Shown here piece after piece: positions 56,259 through 62,586 of a DNA stretch of 64,000 nt (its first letter is position 1; the number at the start of each line of letters is the position of its first letter). Origin of the DNA: Haloarcula rubra (GTDB taxonomy: Archaea; Halobacteriota; Halobacteria; Halobacteriales; Haloarculaceae); the NCBI RefSeq assembly GCF_019599465.1, contig NZ_RKLR01000003.1, positions 558,001 to 622,000 on the forward strand, in the 5' to 3' direction. Under the pieces are notes generated by a model that saw nothing but the letters and a program-made list of their open reading frames with translations, did no database searches and was not told where the DNA came from. The position numbers and the translations under genes were made by a program.

Positions 56259-56995
56259 CGCGCCGTCACCCCCGGCGGCGACAGTTCGTCGGGCCGCGTC
56301 GGCGGGTCGGGGTGTACCGCGTCGTCTAGCTCGACGAGGGATTCCGCGAGGTCGGCGGCGGCCAGATACACCTCACAGTCGGTCGTCTCCCGCAGGTCGT
56401 GAGCCATCGCGGGGACGAACGGCGCGAGGTGGTTCGCCAGCGCCGCCGCCTCGATGCCCTGTATCTCCGTGGCCACCTCGTTCTCGCTCGGGTCGTCGGC
56501 CCGGTCGGCGACGACCGCTCGCTGACCGGCGGCGACCTGTAGCAGTTCCAGTTCGGTGACGACGTGGTCCTGCCGTTCGCCGAACGAGTCGCTCGGTTCG
56601 AGACCGACAGTCTCCAGCAGGCCGACGACGGCGGCGATGCGACGCTGTTGCTTGTCTATCTCCTCGCCCGCCGTGTAGTTGCCTTCGTAGGGAACGACCG
56701 GATAGGTCCCCTCGTCCGTCGGCAGGCCGAACAGGTCGGTGTAGGTCGACTGGAGGTCGGACGCGTCGGCGTCGGCGAGGGCCGCGGTGAACCGCGCCGC
56801 CTCGCTCGCGAGTCCGAGTCGGTCCGCGGCCTGCTCGATACCTTCGACGGCATCTTCGCTCTGTAGCTCCCTCAGTGTCTCCTCGTCGGGGTAGACGAAG
56901 GCCCCGGCCGTGGCGGCGTACAGCGCCGCCCGGGCGCTGTGGAACGCCGGGTCGGTCGTGTCGACGTCCGTGTCGGTCATGCTGTCCCCCGTCAT
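56255..56995 (-). CDS. TorD-family molybdoenzyme assembly chaperone
   Basis: A 246-residue helical chaperone of the TorD/DmsD/NarJ type. The start MTGDSMTDTDVDTTD is at 56995, overlapping the beta-subunit stop by 4 bases; a second ATG at 56980 is possible. The family portion includes ARAALYAATAGAFVYPDEET, YTDLFGLPTDEGTYPVVPYE and ALANHLAPFVPAMAHDLRET. It should bind the alpha subunit's signal or apo-protein during cofactor insertion and hold back export until folding is complete. Its position between beta and gamma genes matches the ABDC order of type II enzymes. Confidence 0.85.
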   Translation of the reverse strand: MTGDSMTDTDVDTTDPAFHSARAALYAATAGAFVYPDEETLRELQSEDAVEGIEQAADRLGLASEAARFTAALADADASDLQSTYTDLFGLPTDEGTYPVVPYEGNYTAGEEIDKQQRRIAAVVGLLETVGLEPSDSFGERQDHVVTELELLQVAAGQRAVVADRADDPSENEVATEIQGIEAAALANHLAPFVPAMAHDLRETTDCEVYLAAADLAESLVELDDAVHPDPPTRPDELSPPGVTAR

Positions 56996-58167
56996 GGTTG
57001 GTTCGTCCACTGTTCGCCCTCGCGGACCTCGATGTCCTCGTAGATGGGCATGTCGACGACCTTCTCGCCGTTCTGGTCCCACCCTTTCACGCGGTTCTCC
57101 TTCACGGTGTACGTCTCGACGAGGCGGGTCGTCGCGCCGAACAACTGGAGGATGCCAAGCACGTGGTGGCTCGGGTCTCGAACCCGCTCTTGTACGATTC
57201 GAACGGACTCCTCGTAGGTCGACCCGGGCCAGTCGTTGCGCTTCTGGTCGGTGTTCGGCGTGAACATCTGCGTGAGGAACTCCGGCGGGACGTGGTACGG
57301 CGGCATGTAGAACACCTGTGGCTGGGTCCCGAACTGCGGGTACAGCGGCAGGGCCACCTTCTCGTCGGAGTGGACGAGGTAGTTGATGGGCGACCGGCCG
57401 CCGGGTGCGTTGCCGCCGGGCGACGCCGCGTCGGGCCCGCGGTTGATGTTCCCGTGCAAGCGCGTCTTCCCGATACACGAGGAGACACACCGCGGGACGT
57501 TCCCCTCCTCGATGCGTGGGTAACAGCCGACCGGTTTCTCCGTGATGCCCGTCTCGGGGTTGTACATCGGCTTGTGATACGGACAGGCCTTCACACAGCG
57601 GCGGTAGCCGCGACAGCGTTCCTGGTCCAGCAGGACGATGCCGTCCTCCTCGCGCTTGTAGATGGCCTGTCGCGGACACCCGGCGAGACAGGCGGGGTTC
57701 TTGCAGTGGTTACAGAGGCGCGGGAGGTAGAACTGCCAGATGTCGTGGTACTCGTCGTTCTCCAGGTCGGACTCGACGACGTCGCCCCGGGGGTACTCGC
57801 CGTGGGCCTGGTCGTCGCCCAGCGCCGGGTACTCCCACGCCTCCTTCTGGGCGATGTAGCCCTTGACCTGTTCGTCGGCGTCGGCAGCCTCGAAGATGGT
57901 CTGGTCCTCCTCGAGTTCCGAGAGGAGTTTCATGTCCCATCCCATGGGGTAGCCGCCGTAAGGTTCGGTCTCGACGTTCATCCACCACATGTACTCTTCG
58001 CCCTCGCCGCTGGTCCACGTCGACTTGCAGGCGAACGAGCAGGTGTTACAGTTGATACATCGGTTCGTGTTGATGACCATCCCCCAGTGGTAGTCCCGCT
58101 CTTCCTCGCGATGTTCGTAGGGGTAGGGCTGTTCGCGACCGAGTTGTGGGTTGTAGGTTTTCGCCAT
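56992..58167 (-). CDS. Iron-sulfur beta subunit, NarH/EbdB-like
   Basis: A 391-residue electron-transfer subunit with four Cys groups for four Fe-S clusters. The first is CINCNTCSFACK (C37, C40, C43, C47). Others are CNHCKNPACLAGCP, CRGYRRCVKACP and CYPRIEEGNVPRCVSSCIG. The order is that of NarH/DdhB/EbdB. It starts at 58167 (MAKTYNPQLGREQPYP) and overlaps the alpha stop. With no export signal, it probably rides out with the Tat-signal-bearing alpha subunit. Confidence 0.92.
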   Translation of the reverse strand: MAKTYNPQLGREQPYPYEHREEERDYHWGMVINTNRCINCNTCSFACKSTWTSGEGEEYMWWMNVETEPYGGYPMGWDMKLLSELEEDQTIFEAADADEQVKGYIAQKEAWEYPALGDDQAHGEYPRGDVVESDLENDEYHDIWQFYLPRLCNHCKNPACLAGCPRQAIYKREEDGIVLLDQERCRGYRRCVKACPYHKPMYNPETGITEKPVGCYPRIEEGNVPRCVSSCIGKTRLHGNINRGPDAASPGGNAPGGRSPINYLVHSDEKVALPLYPQFGTQPQVFYMPPYHVPPEFLTQMFTPNTDQKRNDWPGSTYEESVRIVQERVRDPSHHVLGILQLFGATTRLVETYTVKENRVKGWDQNGEKVVDMPIYEDIEVREGEQWTNQP

Positions 58168-61100
58168 CAGTTGCCACCTCCCTGCAGACTGCCGCCGATG
58201 TAGTCCTGCATCAGGTCGTCCCGTCTGGCGTCGCCGGGCCACCAGTCGGCCTCCTCGTACTTCTCGACGGTCACGAGGTCGTCCCTGTTGACGCCCGTCG
58301 GCGCCCACACCGTCTCCTCGTAGCCGTGTTCGAGTTCCGCACCGTGCCACGCGACGTCCTCGTCGACCACGTCGGAGACGTTCGGGTCGCCGAACACGCC
58401 CTTGTGGACGAGGTCGTCGGTCTCCTGACCGGGGTCCAGCCAGATGTTCGTCGTGACGTTGAACCCCTTGATGCCGTCCTCTGACGCCTCGTCGTCGGGG
58501 AAGTGCTGGGGCCACCAGCCGTGCCAGATGGTCAGTTGGCCCATGTCGCCGGCGTCGCCGGGTCGCTGGCGCTCGCTGACCATCACGCGCACGACGGTGT
58601 CGCCCCGGGTGCCGCTGATGCGGACGTAGTCCCCGTTCTCGACGCCGATATCCGCAGCGTCTGAGGGGTGCATCTCCACGAACGCCTCGCCCAGCGGCGG
58701 CGCGTCGCTGGTGTCGCCCTCCCCCTCCGGGAACGAGAAGTCGTCTATCAGGCGTTCGGTCCCCTCGGGGTCGGCGCTGACGCTCCCGAAGTCACGGGCC
58801 GACCAGACGAGGTTCCAGTCGGTCATGCCCCACGACGAGTGGGTCCGGTACTTCGAGTGGGGGGTGTTGTAGTAGAACTGGTACCCCTCCTCGTAGAGGT
58901 CGTTGGACCCCTCGCCGGCCTCGGGCCACTTCGCGTTCGGTTCGTACGGCGTCCCCTCGACGCTCTCGATGTGGTCCAAATCGTCCCGGTCGAGTTCGAC
59001 GAACCGGTCTTCCTCCTTGTGGAACTCCATCCGTCCGGTCTTGGTGTAGAACGGTCGGTCGTCGTGAATCTGCGAGTAGAACGGGACTCGCGGGTAGGTC
59101 TTGAGGTTCAACCGCTCGGGGCCGTCTTCGAGGTCCTCGACGTCGATGTCCTGGGTGGTGATGCCGGCGTCGAACGCCGCCTGAATGTAGTTGGTCACGT
59201 CCCCGTCCTCGTCGAGGAACTCCGCGAAGTACTCGCGGTAGGAGTCGACGCGGCGCTCCTCCGGCGGAATCTTCTCGTCGAGTCGCTCGGCGACCAGCGC
59301 GATTATCTCGCCGTCCTGTTTGGTGTCGTACAGCGGGTCCATCACCCCGTGGTCCATCTGGACGAACGGGTTCTCCGGCCCGACGGTGATGTCCGGGTAG
59401 TCACACTCCAGCCACGAGGGCACCGGGAGCACGATGTCGGCGTGGCGGGCCGAGTAGGTCATGTGCATGTCCGAGACGACGAACAGTTCGTTCTCCGTCT
59501 CGGGGTGTTTCACGAAGTTCTCTATGACGTGCTCCTGGTGTTTCGTCTGGTTCAGGAGGTTGCAGTTCATCGTCCACAGGACCGAGGGCTTCGACATCGT
59601 GTAGGACTCGGCTCCTTTCGGCATCACCGGGTCCTCGGCGTCGCCCTGCGGGACGAGGTCCAGTTCCCGGTCGAAGTCCCCGCGAATCTCGTGGGGGTCC
59701 AGTCGCTCGCCGCCGAAGAAGGCGAGGGCGTAGCCGGGGTACATCCCGTGGGCCGAGTGGCCGTCGGGGTTGACGTACTGCGGATAGCCGTCCAGCAGTT
59801 CTATCTTGTACTGACCGGAGTAGTTGTAGTACCCACACCCCGGCTTGCCGACGTTGCCTAGCATCGACTGGACGAAGAAGATGGAGCGCTGGAGTGCGCT
59901 GTTGCCGTGGAACCAGTGGTTGATGCCCTCGCCGGTGAACCACTGTCCGTTCTCGGCGGCGGCGAACTCCCGGGCCGTCTTCGCCAGCGCGTCCGCGGGC
60001 ACGGTCGTAATCTCCTCGACCTGTTCGGGCGAGTAGTTCTCCAGCACGTTCGTCTTCTGACGGGTGAAGTCCGTCCGGACGCCGACCGTCGACCCGTCGG
60101 CCAGCGAGAGGTCGGTGTCGGCCTCTAGTGTCGGCGTGACGGGCATCTCCTCGCCGACCTCCTCGCGGGAGACGGCGACGGGGTCTCCCGACTGGTCGAG
60201 GACGACGAACTCGCCCCACGCTTCCTCGCCCTCGGGTTCGCTGTGGTCCGGGAACACCTCGTGGGCGCGGAGGTACTTGTCGTCGTCGTCGCGGACCAGC
60301 AACGGCAGACTCGTGAACTGCCGCATGAACGCGGCGTCGTACAGGTCCTGCTGGATGACGACGTGGGCGACGCCGAGCGGTATCGCCGGGTCGGAGCCGG
60401 GCCGGATGGGGAGCCACCGGTCGCACTTCTGGACCGTCGGCGAGTAGTCGGGGTAGATGCCGACCATCTCCCCGCCGCGCTCGCGCATCTCCTGGAACCA
60501 GTGGTTGTCCGCGAGTTTGTTGTGGATGAGGTTCTTCCCCTGGATGATGGTGTAGTCGGACTTGCGCCAGTCGGCCGCGTCGGCGTCGCTCGTCTGGTAG
60601 CCGGTGGTGATGACGTGGCCCGGCGGCAGGTCGGCGTACCAGTCGTACTCCGTCCACTCACACCCGCCGAAGACGGATGCGAGGCGCCGGCCCGCGCCGT
60701 GGCGGGTGAACAGGCCGTCGGCCTTGATGGCGTTGAAGACGTGGAACCGCTTGTTGTCCTCCAGCGAGGCCATCTTCTCGGCCAGTAGGTCGATGGCCTC
60801 GTCCCACGAGACGCGCTCGAACTCGTCCTCGCCGCGGCCCTCGGGGTTCGGGTCGTCCGGGCTCCACCCCTTGCGGACCATCGGGTACTTGATGCGGGAC
60901 GGTTCGAACGTGCGCCGGTGGAGCGTCAGTCCCTTCATACAGCCACGGGGGTTCCAGTTCTGGCTGACGCCGGCGTCCTCGTAGCCCGACGGCCCCACAG
61001 AGGGCTCCTCGTTGTGGTACACCTGCTCGGCGCGTATCGGCACGCCGTTCTTCATGTAGAAGTTCAGCGCACAGGACTGCGTGCAGTTGGGGTGACAGAC

Positions 61101-61295
61101 CGTCCAGTCGACGGCGTCGTAGGCGTAGATGTCGTGGTACACCTGTTCCCAGTCGCGGTTCGGATACGACGTGAGCGGGTTCTCGACGCTCGTCACCGGG
61201 TCCGTCGCTTGCGAGGCACCCCAGCCACTGCCGACGAGTGCGCCGATGGCACCGGCACCGGCCGCACTCAGGAAGTCACGGCGTGACAGTGTCAC
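58167..61295 (-). CDS. Molybdopterin oxidoreductase alpha subunit, type II DMSO-reductase family
   Basis: A catalytic subunit of about 1042 residues starting at a GTG at 61295, with a Tat signal (TLSRRDFLSAAGAGAIGALV). The FS0 cluster ligands are Cys67, Cys71, Cys75 (CHPNCTQSC) and Cys119. YDWYADLPP holds Asp218, the Mo-coordinating residue that marks type II enzymes (NarG, EbdA, DdhA, SerA, ClrA). Later motifs include GEGINHWFHGN and ISGTRGDTVVRVMVSERQRP. It would use bis-MGD molybdenum outside the membrane. The true substrate (nitrate, chlorate, selenate, dimethyl sulfide or other) cannot be set from sequence. A start at 61358 is an alternative. Confidence 0.92.
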   Translation of the reverse strand: MTLSRRDFLSAAGAGAIGALVGSGWGASQATDPVTSVENPLTSYPNRDWEQVYHDIYAYDAVDWTVCHPNCTQSCALNFYMKNGVPIRAEQVYHNEEPSVGPSGYEDAGVSQNWNPRGCMKGLTLHRRTFEPSRIKYPMVRKGWSPDDPNPEGRGEDEFERVSWDEAIDLLAEKMASLEDNKRFHVFNAIKADGLFTRHGAGRRLASVFGGCEWTEYDWYADLPPGHVITTGYQTSDADAADWRKSDYTIIQGKNLIHNKLADNHWFQEMRERGGEMVGIYPDYSPTVQKCDRWLPIRPGSDPAIPLGVAHVVIQQDLYDAAFMRQFTSLPLLVRDDDDKYLRAHEVFPDHSEPEGEEAWGEFVVLDQSGDPVAVSREEVGEEMPVTPTLEADTDLSLADGSTVGVRTDFTRQKTNVLENYSPEQVEEITTVPADALAKTAREFAAAENGQWFTGEGINHWFHGNSALQRSIFFVQSMLGNVGKPGCGYYNYSGQYKIELLDGYPQYVNPDGHSAHGMYPGYALAFFGGERLDPHEIRGDFDRELDLVPQGDAEDPVMPKGAESYTMSKPSVLWTMNCNLLNQTKHQEHVIENFVKHPETENELFVVSDMHMTYSARHADIVLPVPSWLECDYPDITVGPENPFVQMDHGVMDPLYDTKQDGEIIALVAERLDEKIPPEERRVDSYREYFAEFLDEDGDVTNYIQAAFDAGITTQDIDVEDLEDGPERLNLKTYPRVPFYSQIHDDRPFYTKTGRMEFHKEEDRFVELDRDDLDHIESVEGTPYEPNAKWPEAGEGSNDLYEEGYQFYYNTPHSKYRTHSSWGMTDWNLVWSARDFGSVSADPEGTERLIDDFSFPEGEGDTSDAPPLGEAFVEMHPSDAADIGVENGDYVRISGTRGDTVVRVMVSERQRPGDAGDMGQLTIWHGWWPQHFPDDEASEDGIKGFNVTTNIWLDPGQETDDLVHKGVFGDPNVSDVVDEDVAWHGAELEHGYEETVWAPTGVNRDDLVTVEKYEEADWWPGDARRDDLMQDYIGGSLQGGGN

Positions 61296-61576
61296 GGGGC
61301 ACCACCCCAGTTCCGCTGTCGGTGGTGGCGTGTGTACATCACCAGTCGGTACGGACATCGACGTCTTGTATCGAGAGCCGCGTTCCAGCACGCTCGGAAC
61401 GGGTGCGAATACGTCCGGGACAATCGTTTAGGAAGGGTGGAACGACAGTTCACACGGAGCCCCAATGTTGCGGTCGTTTTTCCGCTGGGTCGCGCTACCG
61501 CTCTTGCGGCACGGCGTCGAGCGGCGACGTCTCTCGTATCCGTCGTTTGACTGTGAATACGCAGAAGCCCGCGGGG
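61296..61576. other. Intergenic region upstream of the molybdoenzyme operon
   Basis: About 280 bases with no ORF I can support. It must hold the promoter of the six-gene molybdoenzyme operon on the minus strand, but I see no strong TATA box; the minus-strand sequence CCTAAACG near 61427-61434 is a weak candidate. The small frames on the plus strand here (such as at 61332 and 61465) have poor composition. Confidence 0.4.
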
Positions 61577-61666
61577 TTACCGACGGCGGGTGCGTCGGCG
61601 TCTCTCGTCGCTATCCGTCCGTTCTCGTCGCTGTTCGGCGATGGCGAGTAGGTACGTAGGTCGCAT
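61577..61666 (-). CDS. Possible 29-residue Arg-rich ORF after tRNA-like element
   Basis: A short ORF starting MRPTYLLAIAEQRRERTDSD and ending in an Arg-rich tail, with stop TAA at 61579-61577. A GGAGG Shine-Dalgarno sits just upstream of the ATG, and the ORF follows the 3' end of a tRNA-like element (61676) by 9 bases. The Arg-rich end might bind RNA. It is too short to trust without conservation. It could equally be a leftover of the 3' part of the transcript. Confidence 0.35.
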   Translation of the reverse strand: MRPTYLLAIAEQRRERTDSDERRRRTRRR

Positions 61667-61675
61667 AGTGCCTCC

Positions 61676-61738
61676 GCCCCCGCCGGGAGTCGAACCCGGT
61701 CCCGGACCGTGCCGGTGTCCGCCAGTGGACGCGGGGGC
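61676..61738 (-). ncRNA. tRNA-like element 1 (63 nt, no anticodon arm)
   Basis: Read on the minus strand, the first 7 bases GCCCCCG pair with the last 7, CGGGGGC. A D-arm-like hairpin GTCC-ACTGGC-GGAC follows, then a short ACCG-GCA-CGGT hairpin in place of the anticodon arm, then a perfect T-arm CCGGG-TTCGACT-CCCGG. A true tRNA would need more than 70 nt and a 7-base anticodon loop. It begins about 21 bases after the stop of the ORF at 61760 and ends 9 bases before the next ATG. This fits a processing site for RNase P and tRNase Z; function is inferred. Confidence 0.55.
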
Positions 61739-61759
61739 ACCGAGGGGTGGAGCGACGCG

Positions 61760-62068
61760 TCAGGTCGCCTCGACGGTGAGGTCGCTCACCGAGGTGATGC
61801 CGAACCCGTCGGCGAGTCTGTCGGCTACCGCCGTCTCTGGGTCGGCGTCCGCGGGGACGGCGATGCTGACGGTCAGGTCAGCGTCCACGCGGATGTCGGT
61901 GAACGTCGGTCGGACGCTGGTCACGCGGTCGACGGTGACGGCCGAGACGCCGTCGACGCCCTCGACGACGGCGGCGACGCCGCTCTCCAGGTCTTCGGTC
62001 CCGCCGCGGGGGACCCGGAGCGAGACGTCGGCCGATGCGTCGACGGGGACGGTCGCATGGAGCGACAT
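61760..62068 (-). CDS. Acidic protein between tRNA-like elements
   Basis: A 102-residue acidic protein starting MSLHATVPVDASADVSLRVP. It has 18 acidic and no Lys residues, as for real haloarchaeal proteins. The body (SGVAAVVEGVDGVSAVTVDR, then VDADLTVSIAVPADADPETA) could form a small ferredoxin-like or ACT-like alpha/beta fold. I do not recognise a family. The ATG lies 2 bases after the 3' end of tRNA-like element 2, so cleavage there would give an almost leaderless message. The frame upstream of the ATG is Ser/Thr/Arg-rich and not coding. Confidence 0.6.
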   Translation of the reverse strand: MSLHATVPVDASADVSLRVPRGGTEDLESGVAAVVEGVDGVSAVTVDRVTSVRPTFTDIRVDADLTVSIAVPADADPETAVADRLADGFGITSVSDLTVEAT

Positions 62069-62070
62069 AC

Positions 62071-62129
62071 GCCGACGGCCGGAGTCGAACCGGCCCCGAG
62101 ACGGGGGCTCGCCAATCGAGCACGTCGGG
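62071..62129 (-). ncRNA. tRNA-like element 2 (59 nt, no anticodon arm)
   Basis: On the minus strand, CCCGACG at the 5' end pairs with CGTCGGC (6 of 7, with a C-C mismatch at the end). A D-arm-like hairpin GCTC-GATTGGC-GAGC, a short CCCG-TCT-CGGG hairpin instead of the anticodon arm, and the T-arm GCCGG-TTCGACT-CCGGC follow. It has U8 (TG after the acceptor) like a tRNA. Its 3' end is 2 bases before the ATG of the acidic 102-residue ORF. It shares the TTCGACTCC T-loop and TGGC D-loop with element 1. Confidence 0.55.
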
Positions 62130-62363
62130 AGGAGCGACGGACGCGTCGCTCGGTGGAGACGTGTCTGTGTGACGGTGCGTGACTCCCGACGACCGGCGGC
62201 AGTCGATGGCCGACACCACGTAGATACCGTCGTGGGTATCGGCGAAATCGACGCGACCGTCGAGCCGTTCGACGGCGTCGCCGACGTCGGGATTCGAAAT
62301 CGAGGCTCCACCGCAGTGGGTGTCCGCGCGACCGGACGGCCGTCCCACGGTGGCGCTGTGCCC
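62130..62363 (-). other. Structured region upstream of tRNA-like element 2
   Basis: This stretch has no ORF with clear support. On the minus strand 62308-62353 folds as a long hairpin: CCACCG/CGGTGG at the base, then TGGG/CCCA, then GTCC/GGAC around the loop. In the same frame as the small ORF at 62364-62525, after its TAG stop, a protein-like peptide is seen (SISNPDVGDAVERLDGRVDF), but it runs into element 2. It may be a leader RNA, or a decayed gene. Confidence 0.35.
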
Positions 62364-62525
62364 CTACGCTGCGGGGTGAAGCGGACGGGCGCTCACCCGA
62401 CCACACCAGCCCCCAGCAAGAGACACCGGATACGCGGCAGCGATGCCGCGTCCGGCGGCCCACCCGCCGGCGAACGGCCGGCGTGCGATGGGCGAAGACG
62501 TCGGGGCAGGAGTGGTACGGGTCAT
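62364..62525 (-). CDS. Possible 53-residue ORF at start of tRNA-like-element transcript
   Basis: An ORF starting MTRTTPAPTSSPIARRPFAG and ending with TAG at 62366-62364. Support is a GAGGTG Shine-Dalgarno 6 bases before the ATG and a TATA box (62577-62586) at the right distance. The product is Gly/Ala/Arg-rich and not acidic, unusual for a haloarchaeal cytosolic protein. The DNA also holds strong hairpins (62426-62455 and 62465-62483), so the region may be a structured RNA and not coding. Confidence 0.35.
   Translation of the reverse strand: MTRTTPAPTSSPIARRPFAGGWAAGRGIAAAYPVSLAGGWCGRVSARPLHPAA
62426..62483. repeat. Two strong adjacent hairpins
   Basis: Hairpin A, 62426-62455: CCGGA/TCCGG outer stem, a 2-base bulge, then a 7-bp CGCGGCA/TGCCGCG stem with a GCGA tetraloop (GNRA on the plus strand). 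Hairpin B, 62465-62483: CGCCGGC/GCCGGCG with a 5-base loop. Both could form in RNA from either strand. They fall inside the 53-codon ORF. Confidence 0.5.
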
Positions 62526-62576
62526 GTGAACACCTCGTCGGTCTGCGTGACGTATCTACACCATCAGGAGGTGACA

Positions 62577-62586
62577 TATTAAATCT
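62577..62586 (-). promoter_or_regulatory. TATA box for the tRNA-like element transcript
   Basis: The minus strand reads ATTTAATATG, a good haloarchaeal TATA box. Transcription would start near 62555, about 30 bases before the ATG at 62525. No other AT-rich promoter is visible between here and 61577, so one transcript may include the ORFs and both tRNA-like elements. Confidence 0.55.

Follow-up and report, generated by a model that had tools for sequence, protein, structure and literature searches.

tRNA-like elements placed directly before start codons in a conserved haloarchaeal gene unit: candidate signals for the release of leaderless mRNAs

Near one end of a 64,000-nt stretch of the Haloarcula rubra genome (hereafter the window, with positions counted from its first letter), three small ORFs of the minus strand are separated by two tRNA-like elements that lie very close to the start codons behind them, and the question raised by this locus is what purpose such elements might serve there. 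In the direction of reading, the unit begins with a TATA box, TTTAATAT (62576–62583), found at the matching position in nearly all Haloarcula units, and a Shine–Dalgarno-like GAGGTG (62531–62536), which has a similar GGTG counterpart before ORF0 in relatives and is immediately preceded on its 5′ side by a small CGTC/GACG hairpin. The first ORF, ORF0 (62364–62525, 53 codons, C-terminal end ...PAA), has a candidate counterpart in most units of the order; with the TATA box 58 nt upstream and GAGGTG in between, it is not leaderless. It is followed by a hairpin, CCACCG-UGGGAC...CACUG-CGGUGG (62308–62353), compared by eye in relatives, and by element 2 (62070–62129, including the discriminator G at 62070), the 102-codon ORF (61760–62068), element 1 (61675–61738, including the discriminator G at 61675) and a small basic ORF of 29 codons with the pattern M..YLL.I..QRR...RRTRRR (61577–61666), which is conserved after element 1 in Haloarcula. 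The order and coordinates of ORFs and elements given by the first-pass annotation of this DNA all proved correct. Between ORF0 and element 2, a permissive Rfam search revealed no known family.

Genes for a narG-like molybdopterin oxidoreductase and a narH-like Fe-S protein are located downstream (56992–61391, minus strand), and are absent from that place in relatives such as L043. Among the neighbour genes compared, none is conserved through the order and none is kept beyond a part of the 102-codon family; the narG/narH-like genes are therefore not part of the unit, which is self-contained. A search of a plasmid collection found no close DNA match and a single protein match, on a Halorussus plasmid, annotated as hypothetical.

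Both elements can be folded into a small cloverleaf, with a 7-bp acceptor stacked on a 5-bp T arm, a T loop TTCGACT and GG in the D loop, and thus have the acceptor/T-arm stack and TTCRANY loop that define a t-element. The first-pass annotation had described acceptor, D-like and T arms, which were found as described, and had stated that an anticodon arm is missing; a short third arm is in fact present in both, CCGG-CACGGT-CCGG in element 1 (4 bp, 6-nt loop) and CCCG-TCT-CGGG in element 2 (4 bp, 3-nt loop), though it has no 7-nt anticodon loop. With third-arm loops of only 6 and 3 nt, the window elements cannot decode in the way of a normal tRNA. When the elements are folded in isolation, the minimum-energy structure of either is essentially this cloverleaf (−36.3 kcal/mol for the cloverleaf against a minimum of −37.3 kcal/mol for element 1, and −27.0 against −29.5 kcal/mol for element 2), and position 1–72 of element 2 is a C–C mismatch. 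In this GC-rich genome, the folding energy of single elements was not separated from that of shuffled sequences (z about −0.2), so the evidence for the elements is comparative. Within the window, a perfect T arm combined with a strong acceptor occurs only at these two places, besides two real tRNAs.

A covariance search with a model built from relatives returned only the two elements in the 4.67-Mb genome (60.5 and 58.1 bits), the next-best match scoring 27.6 bits. When the same approach was extended to 15 and then to 99 genomes, the better matches were mostly this locus or real tRNAs, and the locus was recovered in genomes outside the training set (L183, L197, L199 and L201); the few weak matches in other genomes look like chance. 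One tRNA-like element (L165:1501–1563, genome G264) ends in C-T-ATG before an ORF of roughly 117 codons for a membrane protein, which is unrelated to the 102-codon family. Neither window element was called by ARAGORN or by Rfam at curated thresholds, and both were absent from the results of a permissive whole-genome tRNA search; the closest Rfam match of element 1 was mascRNA-menRNA, which at 27.1 bits did not reach its threshold of 42.5 bits. Among the relatives' elements, only a minority are classified as tRNAs by ARAGORN, with identities that change by genus (Glu, Asp, Leu, Gly, Arg, Ala or unknown), and this inconsistency argues that selection is not for decoding. The elements also differ from tRNA genes in the anticodon region, most lacking the normal 7-nt loop and the anticodon being inconsistent across genera; the element of L115, with 59.4 bits as a tRNA and the anticodon UUC, is an exception in its score. 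Elements that ARAGORN calls tRNAs (L115, 1823–1897 of the minus strand; L100, L120, L122 and L123) could wrongly appear as additional tRNA genes in the annotation of public genomes.

A search of 31 genomes of the same genus located relatives of the 102-codon ORF in most of them, and a profile search found such relatives in 213 of the 392 sampled genomes of the order, representing 61 of 95 genera; the scan of genome contigs used a narrower profile, the first one (A1) being too diverse. For element placement, 72 units from nine families were read, and a TTCRANY loop with at least four paired T-stem bases was looked for at the exact position before the ATG of the 102-codon ORF. Such a loop was present at the fixed position in 67 of the 72 units, against 33 of 17,136 random or shifted positions of the same loci (0.2%). 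In all 67 units with the element, the ATG lies 1–4 nt past the discriminator, with a spacing of 1 nt in 34 units, 2 nt in 23, 3 nt in six and 4 nt in four. The first base after the discriminator is nearly always U, the discriminator itself is usually C or G, and CCA is encoded in none of the elements, the middle part of which varies from 14 to 60 nt and has no conserved sequence. A search that relies on nothing but the 7-bp acceptor discriminates weakly (31% of the controls with swapped 3′ strands attain the score attained by 85% of the true ones), and the argument therefore rests on the fixed T loop, the spacing and the covariation.

Two of the five units that failed the placement test (L104 and L105) have one altered loop base, and in the other three (L040, L097 and L098, of a Halorussus-like group) the 102-codon gene is present with a degenerate or lost element. 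Since Halorussus-type genomes keep the gene in this state, the element is not indispensable; L097 and L098 (f17 g21) represent a natural loss that is useful for comparison. In Haloarcula, the leader between element 1 and the 29-codon ORF is 3–10 nt long and can carry GAGG. The motif AGAGRYATCNCTG, which lies upstream of element 2 and about 70–270 nt before the 102-codon ORF, was found in 19 of the 72 units and in 11 of 792 control stretches, and is thus enriched, although not general. Visual inspection also showed a hairpin GGGTTCCCCAT..GTGTGGGAATCC in L115 and several units of Haloarcula. In Halomicrobium, HArc-gm2 and a distant family, ORF0 and element 2 are separated by an extra tRNA-like element of larger size (L045:6701–6771, L053:6749–6818, L084, L085, L114 and L115); if both this element and element 2 were cut, a further RNA of about 100–250 nt would be freed.

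The stems are supported by covariation. In an alignment of 54 elements, 90.7% of the cells are paired, compared with 69.1% after shuffling and 38–54% with slid partners; cells changed on both sides number 132 against 39, and the covariation score is 0.583 against 0.188. An absence of compensatory changes in relatives had been named beforehand as the result that would speak against the elements; such changes occur in 11 of the 12 stem pairs, among elements from nine families. The T stem pairs in 95.6% of cells, its position being fixed, though at least four of five pairs were required for inclusion. The acceptor 5′ strand was picked by the finder for pairing, so that the acceptor signal is in part a product of this choice and favours structure, while some misaligned 5′ ends in the alignment count against it. 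The acceptor and T arm are retained in the minimum-energy fold of 38 of 69 isolated elements, and in none of 690 shuffles. The 1–72 pair is non-standard in 21 of 53 sequences.

The ORFs of the unit are coding. A comparison of 14 close relatives within Haloarcula gave an in-frame dN/dS of 0.38 for ORF0 (other frames, 0.89 and 1.81), 0.17 for the 102-codon ORF and, in nine units, 0.37 for the 29-codon ORF (1.11 and 1.56 in the other frames), the other-frame values over all ORFs covering 0.89–2.81; purifying selection thus acts on each of the three ORFs in its own frame. No reading frame that runs through the element is kept between groups, which indicates that translation of the 102-codon ORF starts at the ATG past the element. 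In relatives, ORF0 typically has a small C-terminal residue and often ends in SLAA, SIAA, VRAA or TLAA; the -AA ends resemble ssrA-type degrons. AlphaFold2 modelling predicted a ferredoxin-like fold for the 102-residue protein (pLDDT 86.6). No Pfam match was found for the window protein; EF-1beta models match a few members of the family weakly (best E 0.0012). Searches with the predicted structure by Foldseek and VIA-align revealed no match above background, and in the comparison with DUF211 and EF-1beta the structural matches (Z 5.9–6.7) were within background.

Taken as a whole, the placement and structure of the elements make it likely that the elements are the sites at which tRNase Z, probably together with RNase P, cuts a polycistronic transcript, and that leaderless mRNAs are set free in this way. 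One promoter would give rise to a transcript containing ORF0, the 102-codon ORF and, in Haloarcula, also the 29-codon ORF, and the dedicated tRNA-like elements between the ORFs would act as processing signals, mainly for tRNase Z. This enzyme would recognise the 12-bp acceptor/T-arm stack with the T loop and cut just past the discriminator, the predicted cuts being located between 62070 and 62069 at element 2 and between 61675 and 61674 at element 1. The next ORF would thereby gain a 5′ end 1–4 nt before its AUG, i.e., become a leaderless mRNA, the prevailing kind in haloarchaea, and the 102-codon mRNA would begin with U-AUG. RNase P would probably cut on the 5′ side of the element (predicted between 62130 and 62129 for element 2), trimming the upstream mRNA; this part is less certain than that of tRNase Z, because the 1–72 mismatch is frequent. 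The conserved placement, the covarying stems, the coding ORFs, the lack of a TATA-like box before the 102-codon ORF and the geometry shared with the 5S rRNA t-element can be read from the sequences; that the ORFs are co-transcribed, that these enzymes cut the transcript and that translation depends on it are the parts of the model that we infer.

Several further observations bear on this proposal. Of 72 units, 71 have no TATA-like box 15–45 nt before the 102-codon ATG, because that stretch is occupied by the element; this leaves the ORF0 promoter, some other type of promoter, or processing as the source of the 102-codon mRNA. Leaderless mRNAs, for which the definition is a leader of 0–5 nt, account for 72% of the mRNAs of H. 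volcanii (PMC4983044); the spacing of 1–4 nt fits this range, which is partly exceeded by the 3–10 nt leader after element 1 in Haloarcula. Haloferax tRNase Z is described as making the 5′ end of 5S rRNA at a tRNA-like structure (Holzle 2008, as summarised in PMC3296008), and the same arrangement can be read in the present genome, where ACTCGGC-G of the 5S rRNA t-element is followed by 5S rRNA, and the 5′ end that Rfam assigns to this rRNA coincides with the first base past the discriminator. Engineered t-elements have also been used in H. volcanii, where RNase P and tRNase Z act on them in vivo to give exact RNA ends (PMC4946936).

A different reading of the same placement is that the elements are left uncut and serve as tRNA-mimic operators, to which a tRNA-binding protein, conceivably the 102-residue product itself, attaches and so blocks or promotes translation of the ORF that follows. 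E. coli has an operator of this type in its thrS leader. Such a role would agree with an element touching the start codon and with the ferredoxin-like fold predicted for the protein, a fold common among RNA-binding proteins; the near-exclusive occurrence of the elements with the 102-codon family, which this reading also predicts, is a counterpoint to the processing model. A binding site, however, would not require the exact succession of acceptor, discriminator, U and AUG, neither sequence nor anticodon identity is conserved among the elements, and elements also precede the unrelated 29-codon ORF, another ORF in L165 and 5S rRNA. On this balance, the operator seems rather unlikely.

The first-pass annotation had also allowed that the elements are stable small RNAs in themselves. 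Two-sided cutting would indeed free RNAs of 59–64 nt, and the nearest Rfam match to element 1, albeit below threshold, is the small RNA mascRNA-menRNA; yet a function of the RNAs themselves, with the ORF edges incidental, leaves the strict ATG spacing unexplained, and it is not favoured because the sequence of the elements, including their variable middle part and anticodon region, is not conserved. We regard it as very improbable. Ordinary tRNA genes, or tRNA pseudogenes decaying beside a gene, deserve hardly any credence: a few elements, e.g., that of L115, are near-complete tRNAs, but most have no normal anticodon loop and their identities differ between genera, the L115 genome has two canonical tRNA-Glu D arms elsewhere, and covariation and constant spacing do not arise by decay. 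Next to nothing also speaks for a tmRNA-like device, in which a tRNA-like domain is combined with a short ORF ending in -LAA. The SLAA, SIAA and TLAA ends of ORF0 are like bacterial tag peptides; at the same time, ORF0 has its own promoter, Shine–Dalgarno-like site and AUG and lies outside the element, the element is self-contained rather than built from two ends of one RNA, CCA is not encoded, and ARAGORN finds no tmRNA.

The preferred reading, processing at the elements by tRNase Z and probably RNase P, has partial parallels in known systems. The haloarchaeal 5S rRNA t-element (Holzle 2008, as presented in PMC3296008) shares the acceptor/T-arm stack, the TTCGACT loop and the discriminator followed by U, but it precedes an rRNA and not an ORF, and an 8-nt linker replaces its D and third arms. 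In animal mitochondria, tRNAs between successive ORFs define the mRNA ends (Ojala 1981, as cited in PMC10941002); the punctuation marks there are functional tRNAs, whereas here they are mostly non-decoding elements within one chromosomal unit. Plant mitochondrial t-elements are tRNA-like elements at mRNA ends which are cut by RNase P and RNase Z and are not aminoacylated (PMC11658184); they are organellar and are not part of a conserved unit in which the elements border on start codons. The mascRNA and menRNA of MALAT1 and NEAT1 (RF01684) have a reduced cloverleaf and are cut by RNase P and RNase Z, but they represent the end of a long non-coding RNA, and element 1 scores below the curated cut-off of that family. 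The crRNA cassettes of H. volcanii, in which flanking tRNA-like elements release exact ends in a haloarchaeon (PMC4946936), are engineered. The first-pass annotation knew of no described system with this layout, and no description was found in the open-licence papers searched either.

Elsewhere in the same genome (G000:C34:82462, 84159 and 85819; L009, L010 and L011), three short acceptor/T-arm elements lie between tandem paralogous genes, on the same strand and roughly 20–40 nt before the ATG; the linker is 10–13 nt in two of them, and the paralogues start with M..(F/L)ELSRRKVLGGLG or similar. From its sequence, this locus is possibly a second operon punctuated by t-elements.

As to the biological meaning, the 102-residue protein, and with it the 29-residue basic peptide of Haloarcula, might conceivably be dosed by the free capacity of tRNase Z and RNase P, so that the unit would act as a sensor of tRNA maturation throughout the order; we hold this suggestion to be doubtful. 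The unit, order-wide and with three ORFs, adds a protein family without a known domain. If the processing model is true, it would, as far as could be found, be the first case among the chromosomal operons of free-living prokaryotes of dedicated tRNA-like punctuation that makes internal cistrons leaderless; it would provide a conserved mRNA target for tRNase Z outside organelles, and would show how an internal ORF can gain a leaderless mRNA without a promoter of its own.
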